Positions 12,609 through 28,103 of a DNA stretch of 35,086 bases are shown piece by piece. Under the pieces are notes generated by a model. The model worked only from the letters and a program-made list of their open reading frames with translations, was not told the origin of the DNA and searched no databases. The DNA lies in assembly GCA_022402525.1 (NCBI GenBank), contig JAKRSB010000109.1, forward strand, positions 109,283 to 144,368, in the 5' to 3' direction. Positions within the stretch are counted from its first letter, which is position 1. Each line of letters opens with the position of its first letter. This stretch comes from Thermosynechococcaceae cyanobacterium MS004 (GTDB lineage Bacteria; Cyanobacteriota; Cyanobacteriia; Thermosynechococcales; Thermosynechococcaceae). Both the position numbers and the translations under genes were made by a program.

Positions 12609-13310
12609 CTACACCAGCAGATCCTCAAGGGCATCCATATCAATAATCTGAAAAGAATCCTGGGTTCTTTTAATGAGGCCCTTCTTCTCCAACTTACCTA
12701 AAACCCGCGTTACGGTTTCTCGCGCCATCCCGCTCAGGCTACTCAATTCACGATGGGGCAGGTTTGGAATCTCCATTCCCCCACTTTTGCGCGTCCCTTG
12801 CCCCTCTGCCAAAAAGAGCAGAATATCTGCCACCCGCGACATGCTGTCTGATTCCCGCAGCCTTAAACGTCGGTTGACCTGCCGCAGCCGCCGCGCCATC
12901 AGCTTTGCAAGCCGAATACCAGACTGCGGCTCTGTATTGAGCAAATGTACAAAATCAGAAGCGGGCATGTTAGCCACCAGAGTTGGGGTCAAGGTAATCA
13001 CGTCCGTAGAGCGCGGCACTTCATCCAAAGGTGCCATCTCCCCAAAGACCTCTCCTTTTCCCACAATATTGAGGGTCACTTCCTTGCCGTCCAGATTGTA
13101 GGTGCGAATTTTAACCCAGCCGCTCACAATAAAGTAAACGGAGCTACCCCAGTCATTTTCGAGCAAAACCACCCGATTTGCAGGGTGCTCACGGGTCACG
13201 ATATGGGCCAAAGAGGCACGGACAGCGTCCTGGGGCAGTCCGTCAAAGAAGGGAACTGAACGAATCAGCTCATCTAGCTTTGCGTCACGAAGATTTTGCC
13301 GATCATCCAT
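12609..13310 (-). CDS. Crp/Fnr family transcription regulator
   Basis: 233 residues from ATG 13310 (MDDRQNLRDAKLDELIRSVPFF), which matches where related cyanobacterial proteins begin as I recall them. The frame is open to 13481, but that stretch looks unlike the family. GGAG lies 12 bases upstream. The N-terminal half is a cyclic-nucleotide-type beta-barrel; its cassette FGEMAPLDEVPRSTDV keeps the phosphate-contacting Arg-Ser. The C-terminal winged helix includes HRELSSLSGMARETVTRVLGKLEKKGLI, the recognition helix. It lacks Fnr cysteines. It is not NtcA, whose effector and DNA-binding motifs differ. The ligand could be cAMP or another small molecule. Confidence 0.9.
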   Translation of the reverse strand: MDDRQNLRDAKLDELIRSVPFFDGLPQDAVRASLAHIVTREHPANRVVLLENDWGSSVYFIVSGWVKIRTYNLDGKEVTLNIVGKGEVFGEMAPLDEVPRSTDVITLTPTLVANMPASDFVHLLNTEPQSGIRLAKLMARRLRQVNRRLRLRESDSMSRVADILLFLAEGQGTRKSGGMEIPNLPHRELSSLSGMARETVTRVLGKLEKKGLIKRTQDSFQIIDMDALEDLLV

Positions 13311-13551
13311 GAGCTTTGTCATCTCCCTACGCAAGAATGCAATCTTAACCCTCGCCCTCAATTCCAAAATAGCCTGTCTACTTCGCCGAATGACACCTTG
13401 CTGCAGGATGGAGACGCTAAAGATCAGACTGTGCCACTGCGCCTCCTTAGACGTGCGATCGCCAAGCGTGGCTGCTCTCAAGCAACTATATCAACACATA
13501 TAAAACCAACAGAAGTAAACGCTATTTCCTTTCTGCAAAAATTAAGAAATA

Positions 13552-23691: not shown

Positions 23692-24119
23692 AAATTAGTG
23701 GAGCGCAGCGACAGTAGTTATGAAGGATGAGATGAGGCGTAGTGAATGACCTGGAAAGTCTAGACGGCTTAGAAGGTCTTTAGAAGATCTGAGTTCCTAA
23801 CTTAAACGAGAAGAACAGTCTAGTGGAACAATTAGCTCTGAGAGTAGGCATATGTTAATGGCCTGCTTTGGAGCTTACTGTGGTTAGGTAGAGGTCTTGA
23901 CGAATTTTATAGTCTTAGACTTTACCATCATCTCAGATTTACTGTGAAAACTGTTTAGTGACTTCAGCAATGCCGACAAACAGTGCTCACCAACCCTGTC
24001 CACAAAAATTGCTCATAAGCCGTGTTCATAAGTAGTGCTCATAAACTGCCTATCAAGCCAAACGATTTTAATGAAGCTCTAGACCCAAAATCAATAGCGT
24101 GAGGGCAGTGCATCGCCTA
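23692..24119. other. Gene-free stretch upstream of serA
   Basis: 428 bp without a credible gene. It contains the 13-bp x3 array at 24008-24046 and leads into the transposase relic. Promoters of serA must lie here, but no confident box was found. Confidence 0.5.
24008..24046. repeat. 13-bp direct tandem repeat x3
   Basis: ATTGCTCATAAGC, CGTGTTCATAAGT and AGTGCTCATAAAC in exact register. Confidence 0.85.
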
Positions 24120-24384
24120 GGAGGTGGGCGCAAATCTATCACCGAGAGCGACCTCACCATAAATGGAACAAGATTGAGCACCGTTTGTTCTCTCAAATCA
24201 CTCAAAACTGGCGAGGCAGACCCTTAAAACGACAACCACTGGGCTTAAGGTCATGACCGCACTCGATGAAGGATACTATTCCACGGGCATTGAAACCACC
24301 GATGAGCAATTCCAGTCCATCCATCTCGAAAAAGCTGATTTCCACGGTGGATGGAACGATAAAATCTTGCCTCAACCCATTTGA
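24120..24384 (+). pseudogene. ISAzo13-type transposase relic with internal deletions
   Basis: Three frames carry pieces of one protein in the right order. From 24120: GGGRKSITESDLT, resembling an N-terminal block. From 24155: HHKWNKIEHRLFSQITQNWRGRPL, a conserved block near the C-terminus. From about 24229: TTTTGLKVMTALDEGYYSTGIETTDEQ and on to HLEKADFHGGWN and the stop at 24382. Between the first two blocks most of the catalytic region is missing, and between the last two a short EVIVNLIA-type stretch is missing. It matches the ISAzo13 family as I recall it. It is dead, and no terminal inverted repeats were identified. Confidence 0.75.
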
Positions 24385-24417: not shown

Positions 24418-25914
24418 TCAAAAGAATACAGTCGGTGCTTTTGTACCCTGTGTTTGCGGGCCTATCTTTTGCGTCACCAACTGAACCGCGCGGCGGCGGA
24501 CTTCTAAAATTTGTCCAATCTCTCGTGCAAAACTGGGCTGGCGGGCAATCATCTGGTTTACTTCATCGGCTGAAATCATCATCACCTCCAGGTCGTTGAC
24601 TGCCGTAATGGAGACAGGGCTAGGTTCGCTAGAGAACAACACCATCTCACCAAAAAACTCACCCGCATGGAGTGATAGAACTGGATGATCAACCCCTGTT
24701 TCGTCTAGGGTTGATAGGGCAGCCTGACCCGACACAATGATATAGAGGGAGTTGCTCGGATAGCCCTGACGAATGACCGTTTCACCCGTACCGAAGTGCT
24801 GTAGGGTAACCCCCGCAACGATTCCCTGAGGGCGATCGCCCGTCCCCCGATCAAGGGGCACAAAATCGGGTATGGACTCTAGGCTTTCAGCAAATTTACG
24901 ATTCGTACTGCTGGCTTGAGCCGTTGGCCCATGAAAATGGTAGAGGGTGCGAATGGGAAAGGGAATCGTAAGGTGATTACGCTGAGCCGCGTACCACACC
25001 CGACTCATAAAGCGACTACGAATATCTTCAATGTCGGCATAATCTTCAACAAAGAATTTAACTTCGTAGGCAATGGAAAAATCATCGTAGGAAAGGGTCA
25101 AGATCTGGGGTTCTGGAACGGCTAAAATTCCTTGAGTTGCCAGGGCTGTACTTTTAAGGACGTGCCGCGCCAAGTTGGGCGGGTCGTTATAGGAGAAGCC
25201 CATTTTGATCCGTTCCGCATGGAGCGGTAGGGGGCGGCTAAAGTTGCGAATAATTTCGCCACTAATCACCTTATGGGGAATAATCACCATCTCGCGGTCA
25301 AAGGTTTGAAGCCGCACTGAGCGCCAGTTAATGTCAATGACCTGCCCCGTCAAATCCCCCACCCGCAGCCAATCACCCACATTAAAGGGACGCTCAAAGA
25401 GCAGGGCAATGCCTGAGGTGACGCTGCCAAGGGTGTCTTGCAGGGCTAAACCAATCACGATGGAACTCACGCCGAGGGCCGTCGCTAACCCTGCCAAATC
25501 TGCATTCCAGACCGTGGCTAAGACAATGGCAGACCCGACCAAAATCAAAAAGAGCCGCGCGAGGTCAATCAACAGCTTCGGCATTTTGGCGCGCCAGGTA
25601 TCGGCACCCGCCTGCTCAAACAAAATCACATTGAGGAGCGATAGTGCCGTGTGGATGATGACAATCCACAGCAGGGTCTGGATGCTTTTAACGATCTGGT
25701 GGTCGGGCTGTAGCTTGAGCACATAGATCATAAAGAACAGAAAGGCCAGTATGGGTAGCAATAAATTGCGCACCACCCGGAGCGTCTCGGCCAAGGGGCG
25801 TCCCCGTCGCTTCTGACGATGAATCACCTCCCCCAGCACAATAATCAGTAGGGGAAACCCCAGCACAAGGGCGATCGCCCACACCAGTAAATCTTGAAAC
25901 GCTGCGCCATTCAT
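24418..25914 (-). CDS. MscS-type mechanosensitive channel with C-terminal cyclic-nucleotide-binding fold
   Basis: 498 residues from ATG 25914 (MNGAAFQDLLVW). Residue numbers here count from the longer frame that starts at 25938, eight residues earlier. Four helices (about 15-40, 57-73, 84-108, 124-145) precede the pore helix and beta domain (LATALGVSSIVIGLALQDTLGSV...LLFERPFNVGDW, 151-190), with the rest of the MscS domain to about 340. A Crp-fold domain fills about 375-490. This is the bacterial cyclic-nucleotide-gated (bCNG) architecture. Its phosphate-binding cassette reads GEFFGEMVLFSSEPSPVSITA, so the usual Arg is Ser or Pro, and cyclic-nucleotide affinity may be low or altered. It sits 65 bp downstream of the cyclase gene on the same strand. 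The start codon lies inside a 14-bp tandem repeat that carries extra out-of-frame ATGs. Confidence 0.92.
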   Translation of the reverse strand: MNGAAFQDLLVWAIALVLGFPLLIIVLGEVIHRQKRRGRPLAETLRVVRNLLLPILAFLFFMIYVLKLQPDHQIVKSIQTLLWIVIIHTALSLLNVILFEQAGADTWRAKMPKLLIDLARLFLILVGSAIVLATVWNADLAGLATALGVSSIVIGLALQDTLGSVTSGIALLFERPFNVGDWLRVGDLTGQVIDINWRSVRLQTFDREMVIIPHKVISGEIIRNFSRPLPLHAERIKMGFSYNDPPNLARHVLKSTALATQGILAVPEPQILTLSYDDFSIAYEVKFFVEDYADIEDIRSRFMSRVWYAAQRNHLTIPFPIRTLYHFHGPTAQASSTNRKFAESLESIPDFVPLDRGTGDRPQGIVAGVTLQHFGTGETVIRQGYPSNSLYIIVSGQAALSTLDETGVDHPVLSLHAGEFFGEMVLFSSEPSPVSITAVNDLEVMMISADEVNQMIARQPSFAREIGQILEVRRRAVQLVTQKIGPQTQGTKAPTVFF

Positions 25915-25947
25915 ACTGTGCCATTCATACTGTGCCATTCATACTGT
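25906..25947. repeat. 14-bp tandem repeat x3 over the MscS start codon
   Basis: GCCATTCATACTGT three times, identical (25906-25919, 25920-25933, 25934-25947). On the coding strand each unit holds overlapping ATGs; because 14 is not a multiple of three, copies fall in different frames. Confidence 0.97.
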
Positions 25948-25979
25948 ACTATCGCTGTTCTGTGAGGATTTAACTGCAA

Positions 25980-28103
25980 TTATCGGGCTGTGGGCTGCGG
26001 GGCTTTCAGCCGCCATGCCTGGGCAATGTCCTGCCCCAGATCTTCAGAATCGAGCCAAGGTTCAAAATCATAGAGATCGTGTAGGCGCTGATAAACCGAC
26101 TCAGACACTAAAATGGTGCCAGCAGGGCACACATCTCGGAGATTACTAGCAATGTTGATGGTATCGCCCCATACGTCGTAGATAAACTTATTGCGACCCA
26201 CAATGCCTGCTACCACGTCTCCAGCACTAATGCCGACCTGGATATCGAGGTGAAAGCCGCGCTCGAAGTTGAACCGCCGCATCACAGCCTGTAGCTCTTG
26301 GGCAAACCCGATCGCCCGCTTGTCGTGGTCGAGGTAGGGCACCGATAGTCCACACAAGGCCATGTAGCTATCGCCGATGGTTTTGATTTTTTCCATACCA
26401 AAGCGTTCGGCGGCTTCATCAAAGGCGGCAAATAAATCATTGAGCAAATGGACGATATCGTAGGCGGTCATCGTCTCAGAGAGTTTAGAGAAGCCCGTTA
26501 AATCGGCAAAGATCACCGAAACGTTCGAGATATCCTCGGCAATGTCTTTTTCGCCCTGCTTCAGCCGTTTGGCGATCGCCGCCGGAAAAATGCTCAGCAA
26601 CAACTGCTCGTTTTCGCGGTTCTTTTCGGCCACCAAATCGGTTTGGGTATGCAGGCTTTGAAGCATGGCGTTAAAGGACTGCGCCAGTTCACCAAATTCA
26701 TCTTGGGGGTTGAGGGGGACGATCGCATCCATCTCTCCTGCCTCCACCCGACGGGCACTATCGATCAGGTGCTGAATCGGCTTCACAAACAGATAGGCCA
26801 GCCCCATGGCAATGATCGTCAGCAACAGCATCAGCAGCGTTGCAGACACCAACACCTGGCGGGTAAAGGCATAGACAGGTTCGTAGGCTTCGGCAAGATC
26901 CATCTCGGCGATAATCACCCAGTCTAGGCCATTGATCTTGAGGGGTGCGTAGGCACTCAGCACCGGAGTCCCGCGATAGTCGTCAATAATTTGCGTCCCT
27001 TGGCGACCTCTCAGCGCCTGCACCGTCCCTTGGGTTTGCACCCGCTGCTGCAAAATCGAGGTTTTGTATTGAGTAATCCGGCGGATGACACTTTCATTCA
27101 TTCCCCCCACCCGCAGGGATTCAATATAGCCCTGCTGATCCTCCACTAAAAAACGCGAAATGGAGCGCATGAGGTAATCTCGCCCCACCAGGTAAGTTTC
27201 CCCCGTTTTGCCCAGGCCGCTGCGCTTCCACTGTTGGTTGTCAGTCATGACCTTGTTGATTTCATCCACAGGCATCTGGAAGGCCAGCACCCCCATCAGT
27301 TTAGATCCCTTAAAAATAGGGGCAGCAATAAAGGCAGCAGGGGCACCGTAGGAAGGGCCATACCCTTCAAAATCAATAATCTGCGAATAGTTTTTTTCTT
27401 TCGCCTGCTGTACCTGATTCACGAGACGGGCCAAGTTGGTGGGTTTATAGGGCCCAGTCGAGAGGTTGGAGGTAAAGTCGGTTTCTTTAAATACGGTGTA
27501 CACGATCGTGCCCTGGGGGTTAATCAGGAACATATCGTAGTAGCCAAATTTTTCAATAATTTTCCGAAAAATGGGGTGGTAGCGCCCATGAATGCGGCTA
27601 TAGGCACTCCCATCCTTGGCCGCATTCAGTAGATGTTTTTTGCCCACAGGATTGGGGTTGCGGGCAATATACTCATACTGTAGGTAGCGAGACGCCGCAG
27701 ACTGCGGCAGGTAAGACTCCAAAACCGGCGATCCAGATTCGGTCTTGGCCAGTCGGGGCAAAAATTCGGTGCGGTAGTAGGCGGCGATCGCCGGATCGGC
27801 CTCGGTGGGCACCTTAACATTACTCAGCCCTCGATAGGCAGCATCAAATTCCTCCATCGCGGCCACAATGGCTAGGTCTTCGCTCAGGGTTTCGGTGTGG
27901 TTTTGAATGGTGGTGAAGTAGGATTCAACTTGATAGGCCTTAGTGGTTCTCAGGCTGGTGAGCTGGCTAAAAACGCGGCTGGTGAGGTTAGAGCGTCCGC
28001 TCTGATAGCCAATATAGGCCGTGACCAGAATTGAAAAGCCGCTCACTGCAAGCAGCATGGTAATTAACTTAGACTTAATGCTCAGATGATCGAGCGATCG
28101 CAT
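25980..28103 (-). CDS. Membrane-bound class III adenylate cyclase with Cache sensor and HAMP
   Basis: 707 residues. TM1 about 12-33, an extracytoplasmic double-Cache domain about 40-405 (GKTGETYLVGRDYLMRSISRF at 298-317, typical of ligand-binding Cache), TM2 about 416-440, HAMP 441-490, and a class III catalytic domain about 522-690. Metal aspartates D534 (FADLTGF) and D578 (IGDSY) are present. Substrate-defining residues are K574 and D643, the ATP-specific pair, so it is probably an adenylate rather than guanylate cyclase. The Asn of the transition-state pair is N650, but the position of the usual Arg (four later) is N654, with R656 nearby. It would turn an external signal into cAMP for the channel encoded next. 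Confidence 0.93.
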   Translation of the reverse strand: MRSLDHLSIKSKLITMLLAVSGFSILVTAYIGYQSGRSNLTSRVFSQLTSLRTTKAYQVESYFTTIQNHTETLSEDLAIVAAMEEFDAAYRGLSNVKVPTEADPAIAAYYRTEFLPRLAKTESGSPVLESYLPQSAASRYLQYEYIARNPNPVGKKHLLNAAKDGSAYSRIHGRYHPIFRKIIEKFGYYDMFLINPQGTIVYTVFKETDFTSNLSTGPYKPTNLARLVNQVQQAKEKNYSQIIDFEGYGPSYGAPAAFIAAPIFKGSKLMGVLAFQMPVDEINKVMTDNQQWKRSGLGKTGETYLVGRDYLMRSISRFLVEDQQGYIESLRVGGMNESVIRRITQYKTSILQQRVQTQGTVQALRGRQGTQIIDDYRGTPVLSAYAPLKINGLDWVIIAEMDLAEAYEPVYAFTRQVLVSATLLMLLLTIIAMGLAYLFVKPIQHLIDSARRVEAGEMDAIVPLNPQDEFGELAQSFNAMLQSLHTQTDLVAEKNRENEQLLLSIFPAAIAKRLKQGEKDIAEDISNVSVIFADLTGFSKLSETMTAYDIVHLLNDLFAAFDEAAERFGMEKIKTIGDSYMALCGLSVPYLDHDKRAIGFAQELQAVMRRFNFERGFHLDIQVGISAGDVVAGIVGRNKFIYDVWGDTINIASNLRDVCPAGTILVSESVYQRLHDLYDFEPWLDSEDLGQDIAQAWRLKAPQPTAR

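Follow-up and report, generated by a model that had tools for sequence, protein, structure and literature searches.

Gene organization of the locus

Two adjacent genes of Thermosynechococcaceae cyanobacterium MS004 (contig JAKRSB010000109.1) were analyzed; the window, meaning the whole stretch of DNA examined, is 35,086 nucleotides long, and all positions are counted from its first letter. The upstream gene encodes a membrane protein with a Cache sensor, a HAMP domain, and a class III adenylyl cyclase-homology domain, and the downstream gene encodes an MscS-superfamily channel with a C-terminal cyclic-nucleotide-binding-domain (CNBD) fold. The initial annotation had proposed that an external ligand raises cyclic AMP (cAMP), which then gates the neighboring channel. 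Its structural description was confirmed: the open reading frames are co-oriented with the cyclase upstream, on the minus strand (which the annotation did not give), and Pfam, AlphaFold2, and Foldseek together agree with the HAMP, cyclase, MscS, and Crp-fold domains and, with a sub-threshold Pfam match, with the Cache domain. The features of the two genes are as follows.

25980..28103, minus strand: cyclase-homology gene, membrane Cache-HAMP-class III protein of 707 amino acids (open reading frame, Pfam, AlphaFold2, Foldseek)
26907..27545, minus strand: dCache_1-like extracytoplasmic sensor, residues 187-399 matched (Pfam, sub-threshold; family matches)
26649..26801, minus strand: HAMP domain, residues 435-485 (Pfam, 48.5 bits)
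26064..26537, minus strand: cyclase-homology domain, residues 523-680 (Guanylate_cyc PF00211, 140.5 bits)
25915..25979, minus strand: intergenic spacer, 65 bp; no minus-strand terminator-like site found
24418..25938, minus strand: MscS-superfamily channel gene with C-terminal CNBD; 506 amino acids from the first ATG, 498 from the likely start at 25914
25393..25908, minus strand: five long membrane-type helices in the predicted model, residues 11-182, of which the last is TM3, the MscS pore helix
25234..25434, minus strand: MscS beta domain, residues 169-235 (MS_channel_2nd PF00924, 74.4 bits)
24970..25203, minus strand: MscS C-terminal domain, residues 246-323 (MS_channel_3rd, 30.9 bits)
24541..24801, minus strand: CNBD fold, residues 380-466 (cNMP_binding PF00027, 71.7 bits)

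The dCache_1 match of the window cyclase (40.0 bits) was below the Pfam cut-off of 45. The Cache assignment is nevertheless likely, because dCache_1 was matched at E<=0.001 in 36 of 39 members of the paired-cyclase family, exceeding 45 bits in relatives L134, L140, and L151, and because the AlphaFold2 model (predicted single chain, mean predicted local distance difference test score, pLDDT, 84.8) showed a mixed alpha/beta region after the long N-terminal helix and before the helix leading into HAMP. The cyclase domain has the fold that defines class III nucleotide cyclases, as judged from PF00211 and from Foldseek, which found resemblance to Rv1625c, sGC, AC9, and mammalian enzymes (matches 7yzk and 5o5k). 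An 822-amino-acid frame of another genome (G219:C1:162793-164178) also contained the sensor portion (cyclase residues 1-460, at 45% identity); that genome gave no channel match, and the sensor may therefore serve other outputs.

The predicted single-chain model of the channel (mean pLDDT 83.5) resembled MscS, MscK, and YnaI in Foldseek searches. Both parts that characterize bCNG-type MscS-CNBD channels, the pore-beta domain (PF00924) and the C-terminal CNBD fold (PF00027), were found in 41 of 41 family members, and the TM3/beta motif was conserved across the paired-channel family.

The gap between the genes is 65 bp, as initially annotated, when the channel starts at the ATG at 25914, and 41 bp with the first ATG. 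The matching protein of a congeneric relative (L004) begins MNT at the position equivalent to 25914, and this start is therefore favored. A 14-bp unit present in 3.3 copies (25902-25947) spans the channel start region and gives rise to alternative ATGs in different frames; a change in its copy number would move the upstream ATG and leave the one at 25914 in place. The consensus promoter scan (7 promoter-like sites against 4.4 expected) and the terminator scan (10 terminator-like sites against 4.7 expected, none of them inside the spacer) were both uninformative.

Conservation of the gene pair

The pair was surveyed in 390 genomes drawn evenly from the cyanobacterial class, with the channel scored at E<=1e-50 and the cyclase at E<=1e-70. 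An identity search of contigs had given four relatives, and relatives were then collected by whole-genome searches. Among 58 relatives, wherever a genome gave a long channel match (at least 36% identity), the cyclase was present as well, in almost every case immediately upstream and on the same strand. In the survey, the channel was found in 82 genomes and the cyclase in 81; both occurred in 76, compared with 16 expected by chance, where the counts are taken over related genomes and the expectation ignores shared ancestry. Three distant channels (E ~1e-52) and one sensor-only match were left out of this comparison. Each of the three channel-only genomes carried a cyclase fragment in the channel's locus, and in at least two of the four cyclase-only genomes the match lay within ~260 bp of a contig start, at the end where a neighboring channel gene would be expected.

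Eighty-four same-strand pairs were read from fetched loci. The cyclase came first in 82 of them, with a median gap of 41 bp, a gap of no more than 150 bp in 73 of 81, and a 4-bp overlap in twelve. The reversed order was seen in L154 and L158, where the pairing itself was kept. Other genes lay between cyclase and channel in G034 and G160, and both genes were kept, though apart, in six genomes (G184, G248, G214, G202, G260, and G294). Adjacency is thus far beyond chance, and the genes form a widespread co-evolving pair, not a strain oddity. Since the adjacency is conserved across genomes, the possibility that it was unique to this strain, which would have counted against a circuit, was ruled out.

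The distance matrices of channels and cyclases were correlated (r 0.97). Ten genomes contained several pairs, and there the actual neighbors were favored in 12 of 12 paralog comparisons. Both results indicate that the pair duplicates and diverges as a unit. No window gene flanking the pair was matched at 1e-15 in the flanks of other pairs, most of which were short, and no third conserved partner was found in this way.

Catalytic residues of the cyclase-homology domain

The catalytic hexad of class III cyclases consists of two metal-binding Asp residues, the Lys and Asp that specify ATP, and the transition-state Asn and Arg. In the window cyclase it reads DDKDNN, with the positions listed below.

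26502..26504, minus strand: Asp534, first metal-binding Asp, present
26388..26390, minus strand: Lys572, ATP-specifying Lys, present
26370..26372, minus strand: Asp578, second metal-binding Asp, present
26175..26177, minus strand: Asp643, ATP-specifying Asp, present
26154..26156, minus strand: Asn650, transition-state Asn, present
26142..26144, minus strand: Asn654, replacing the transition-state Arg

The window protein therefore retains both metal Asps (lost in many relatives) and both adenine specifiers, and lacks the Arg of the transition-state pair. This Asn-Arg pair has been described as highly conserved (PMC4215837), and an essential role of the Arg is attributed to Yan 1997 as cited in that paper. 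The best non-family cyclase matches in 15 genomes, used as controls, kept DDKDNR in 15 of 15 cases.

At least one catalytic residue was missing from 88 of 91 paired cyclases; the hexad was intact in the remaining three (L006 and L007, which are Microcoleus and Oscillatoriales loci, and L129). The large clade that includes the window protein mostly kept DDKDN and lost the Arg; the second metal Asp was lost in another clade, and nearly the whole hexad in deep members. DDKDN was kept in 38 of 87 pairs, with A, N, H, S, T, F, or I at the Arg position, and degenerate hexads such as SDTHAQ, ENKAKD, and RGPKEH were present in other subclades. When the tree was rooted with the 15 controls, a fully supported branch separated the paired-cyclase family from them, and the minimum number of changes required on this tree at each position (first metal Asp 10, second metal Asp 4, Lys 3, specifying Asp 4, Asn 9, Arg 6) corresponds to several independent losses of each residue. 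Sequencing error was rejected as the source of these losses, which recur in many independent assemblies.

Three heavily degenerate paired cyclases of one subclade (L137, L140, and L151) have a C-terminal globin domain, scored at 49 to 53 bits where the cut-off is 22, and their hexads read NVRSYR, HTRGYS, and NTRKYS, respectively, which makes catalysis by these proteins implausible on sequence grounds. Their LGR[RS]H segment aligned to its counterpart in haem globins of solved structure, and its His is presumably the proximal haem ligand. A fourth protein, L163, gave a weak globin match and has lost this His. The retention of sensors on a domain for which catalysis is implausible suggests a role in signalling, not in catalysis.

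Cassette residues of the channel

In the PKA-type phosphate-binding cassette, with the consensus F-G-E-[LIV]-A-L-[LIMV]-x3-[PV]-R-[ANQV]-A, the Arg holds the phosphate and the Glu holds the ribose (PMC10354285). The corresponding positions of the window channel were assigned by HMMER alignments to solved CNBDs.

24607..24654, minus strand: phosphate-binding cassette position FGEMVLFSSEPSPVSI, residues 429-444
24619..24621, minus strand: Ser440, replacing the phosphate-binding Arg

The window channel has the Glu (Glu431) and lacks the Arg of the canonical cassette. Among 90 readable channels, the Arg position was occupied by Ser in 85, Thr in four, and Met in one, and by Arg in none; L124 has an Arg one position after this site. 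Because the Arg is replaced by a nearly invariant Ser, the site looks re-set, not decaying. Channels without the CNBD Glu seemed to be associated with partners that had lost the five-residue cyclase core (raw Fisher p 0.003); this association was dropped, since only 5 independent contrasts were available and their median p was 1.

The genome that contains the window encodes another MscS-CNBD channel, of 599 amino acids (G000:C97:30900-32060, L179), which shares this architecture with its relatives L035 and L036. It differs from the window channel in having a canonical cassette, FFGEISLFTGSPRSATV, and its contig, C97, gave no class III cyclase. A canonical receptor of the MscS-CNBD architecture therefore exists in the same genome. 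The Thermosynechococcus-type MscS-CNBD protein (~485 amino acids, HFGELPLMLGVACPTT; L023-L032, several genomes of the same family) was considered as an intact control and rejected, as its cassette Arg is missing too; loss of this Arg is therefore not unique to the paired-channel family.

Other features of the window

A second CNBD gene lies at 12609-13481 on the minus strand and has an Arg-containing cassette, FGEMAPLDEVPRSTDV. Between the channel gene and the downstream dehydrogenase gene (~24100-24370) there are frameshifted transposase-like remnants (HHKWNKIEHRLFSQITQNWRGRPL), presumably ISAzo13-like.

Discussion

On balance, we favor the reading that the pair is a conserved cyanobacterial two-gene module of receptor and channel: a sensor-driven dimer of cyclase-like domains would control an MscS-like channel through its CNBD-like domain, probably not by canonical cAMP. 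The Cache domain of the receptor would sense an extracytoplasmic ligand, and the signal would pass via HAMP to a dimer of cyclase-homology domains. This dimer may be chiefly a pseudo-enzyme that signals, possibly with nucleotide bound, or at most a cyclase of weak activity. The CNBD fold in the cytoplasmic part of the channel would receive this signal, and the channel would be controlled either by receptor contact with the CNBD-homology domain or by a ligand other than canonical cAMP. The parts of this reading differ in strength. It is very probable that the two genes work together, and likely that the receptor-channel link is something other than canonical cAMP; direct protein contact as that link falls just short of an even chance. 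We offer as a tentative proposal that a catalytically retired class III cyclase, driven by Cache (and by a globin in one subclade), gates the channel through direct contact with a CNBD-homology domain in which cyclic-nucleotide binding has been lost.

Several observations weigh against this reading. Five of the six catalytic residues survive in the window cyclase, so that weak or altered activity is possible, and residue 656, often Lys or Arg, could in principle replace the lost Arg. Ma1120 has Ala in the position of the transition-state Asn and is active (PMC4215837), and some cyclase activity is therefore conceivable in the window protein. The cassette Glu is present in 73 of 91 channels, which is compatible with a nucleotide-like ligand. 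A receptor dimer would also have to meet a presumably heptameric channel, and the structural models are predicted single chains only.

One alternative is that the cyclase-homology dimer binds ATP without turnover, or makes a different product, and that the re-set Ser pocket binds another small ligand. The retention of DDKDN beside a variable Arg position and the near-invariance of Ser440 are consistent with this version; however, other subclades have lost the nucleotide-binding residues, and nucleotide binding therefore cannot be the mechanism common to the whole family. We regard this alternative as unlikely.

The circuit proposed in the initial annotation, in which a ligand-triggered cyclase makes cAMP and cAMP gates an adjacent bCNG-type channel despite the changed residues, is also improbable. 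The domains and the conserved adjacency fit it, as do the ATP-specifying and metal-binding residues of the window cyclase; at least one class III cyclase tolerates a non-canonical transition-state residue, and bCNG channels have been described. In contrast, the cassette Arg is missing from every readable channel, including the three paired with intact cyclases, nearly all paired cyclases lack a catalytic residue, and the contig of the canonical-cassette channel in this genome carries no class III cyclase. The cAMP mechanism is unsupported because key residues are changed in both the CNBD and the cyclase while the control cyclases and the C97 channel are intact; cAMP gating of the window channel is accordingly a weakened proposal, and cAMP signalling by the pair appears unlikely. 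What stands of the self-contained circuit from sensing to ion flux is a functional unit of two genes; what is not supported is cAMP as the link between them. Mere co-expression, with both proteins serving one response (for example, an osmotic one) without acting on each other, is very doubtful. In its favor, operon-like spacing by itself shows at most co-expression; against it, the co-divergence of paralogous pairs and the co-retention of unlinked genes exceed what shared regulation needs.

The pair can also be set beside known systems. bCNG channels belong to the MscS superfamily and have a C-terminal CNBD (Caldwell 2010 and Malcolm 2012, as cited in PMC4560390), and the window channel shares with them a CNBD fold placed after the MscS pore and beta domain. 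The paired-channel family may differ from them in lacking the phosphate-binding Arg throughout, and it differs in its stable partnership with a Cache-HAMP cyclase-like gene. The window cyclase is like Rv1625c-type and cyanobacterial HAMP-linked class III adenylyl cyclases in its fold, HAMP linkage, Lys/Asp specifiers, and metal Asps. Unlike membrane class III adenylyl cyclases, its clade has lost the transition-state Arg, other clades have lost one metal Asp or the greater part of the hexad, and the family is partnered with a channel. Because each protein lacks one of the defining features examined, their sequences would not place them as a cAMP-gated channel and a working adenylyl cyclase; by architecture, they are an MscS-CNBD protein and a class III cyclase homologue.

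Cyclic nucleotides do not gate the CNBD-homology domain of KCNH channels, and this domain interacts with PAS domains (PMC7515569). The KCNH channels (EAG, ERG, and ELK) thus resemble the proposed module in carrying a CNBD fold without canonical cyclic-nucleotide gating and in being controlled by domain contact, a comparison of working principle only. They differ in having an unrelated channel fold and a PAS domain within the same channel, as opposed to a separate receptor, and in that no intrinsic ligand motif was identified here.

No description of a cyclase-MscS-CNBD module was found in the open-licence papers searched, most subscription journals being outside that search. These results indicate a widespread cyanobacterial module leading from signal to ion flux, and they illustrate that domain labels alone can mislead: a cyclase beside a cyclic-nucleotide-gated channel suggests cAMP, and the key residues contradict it. 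If the proposed reading is true, the pair would be a prokaryotic parallel to the KCNH channels and a clean system for studying how a cyclase scaffold signals without catalysis; should direct contact be the link, a cAMP enzyme together with its receptor would have been turned into a direct protein relay.

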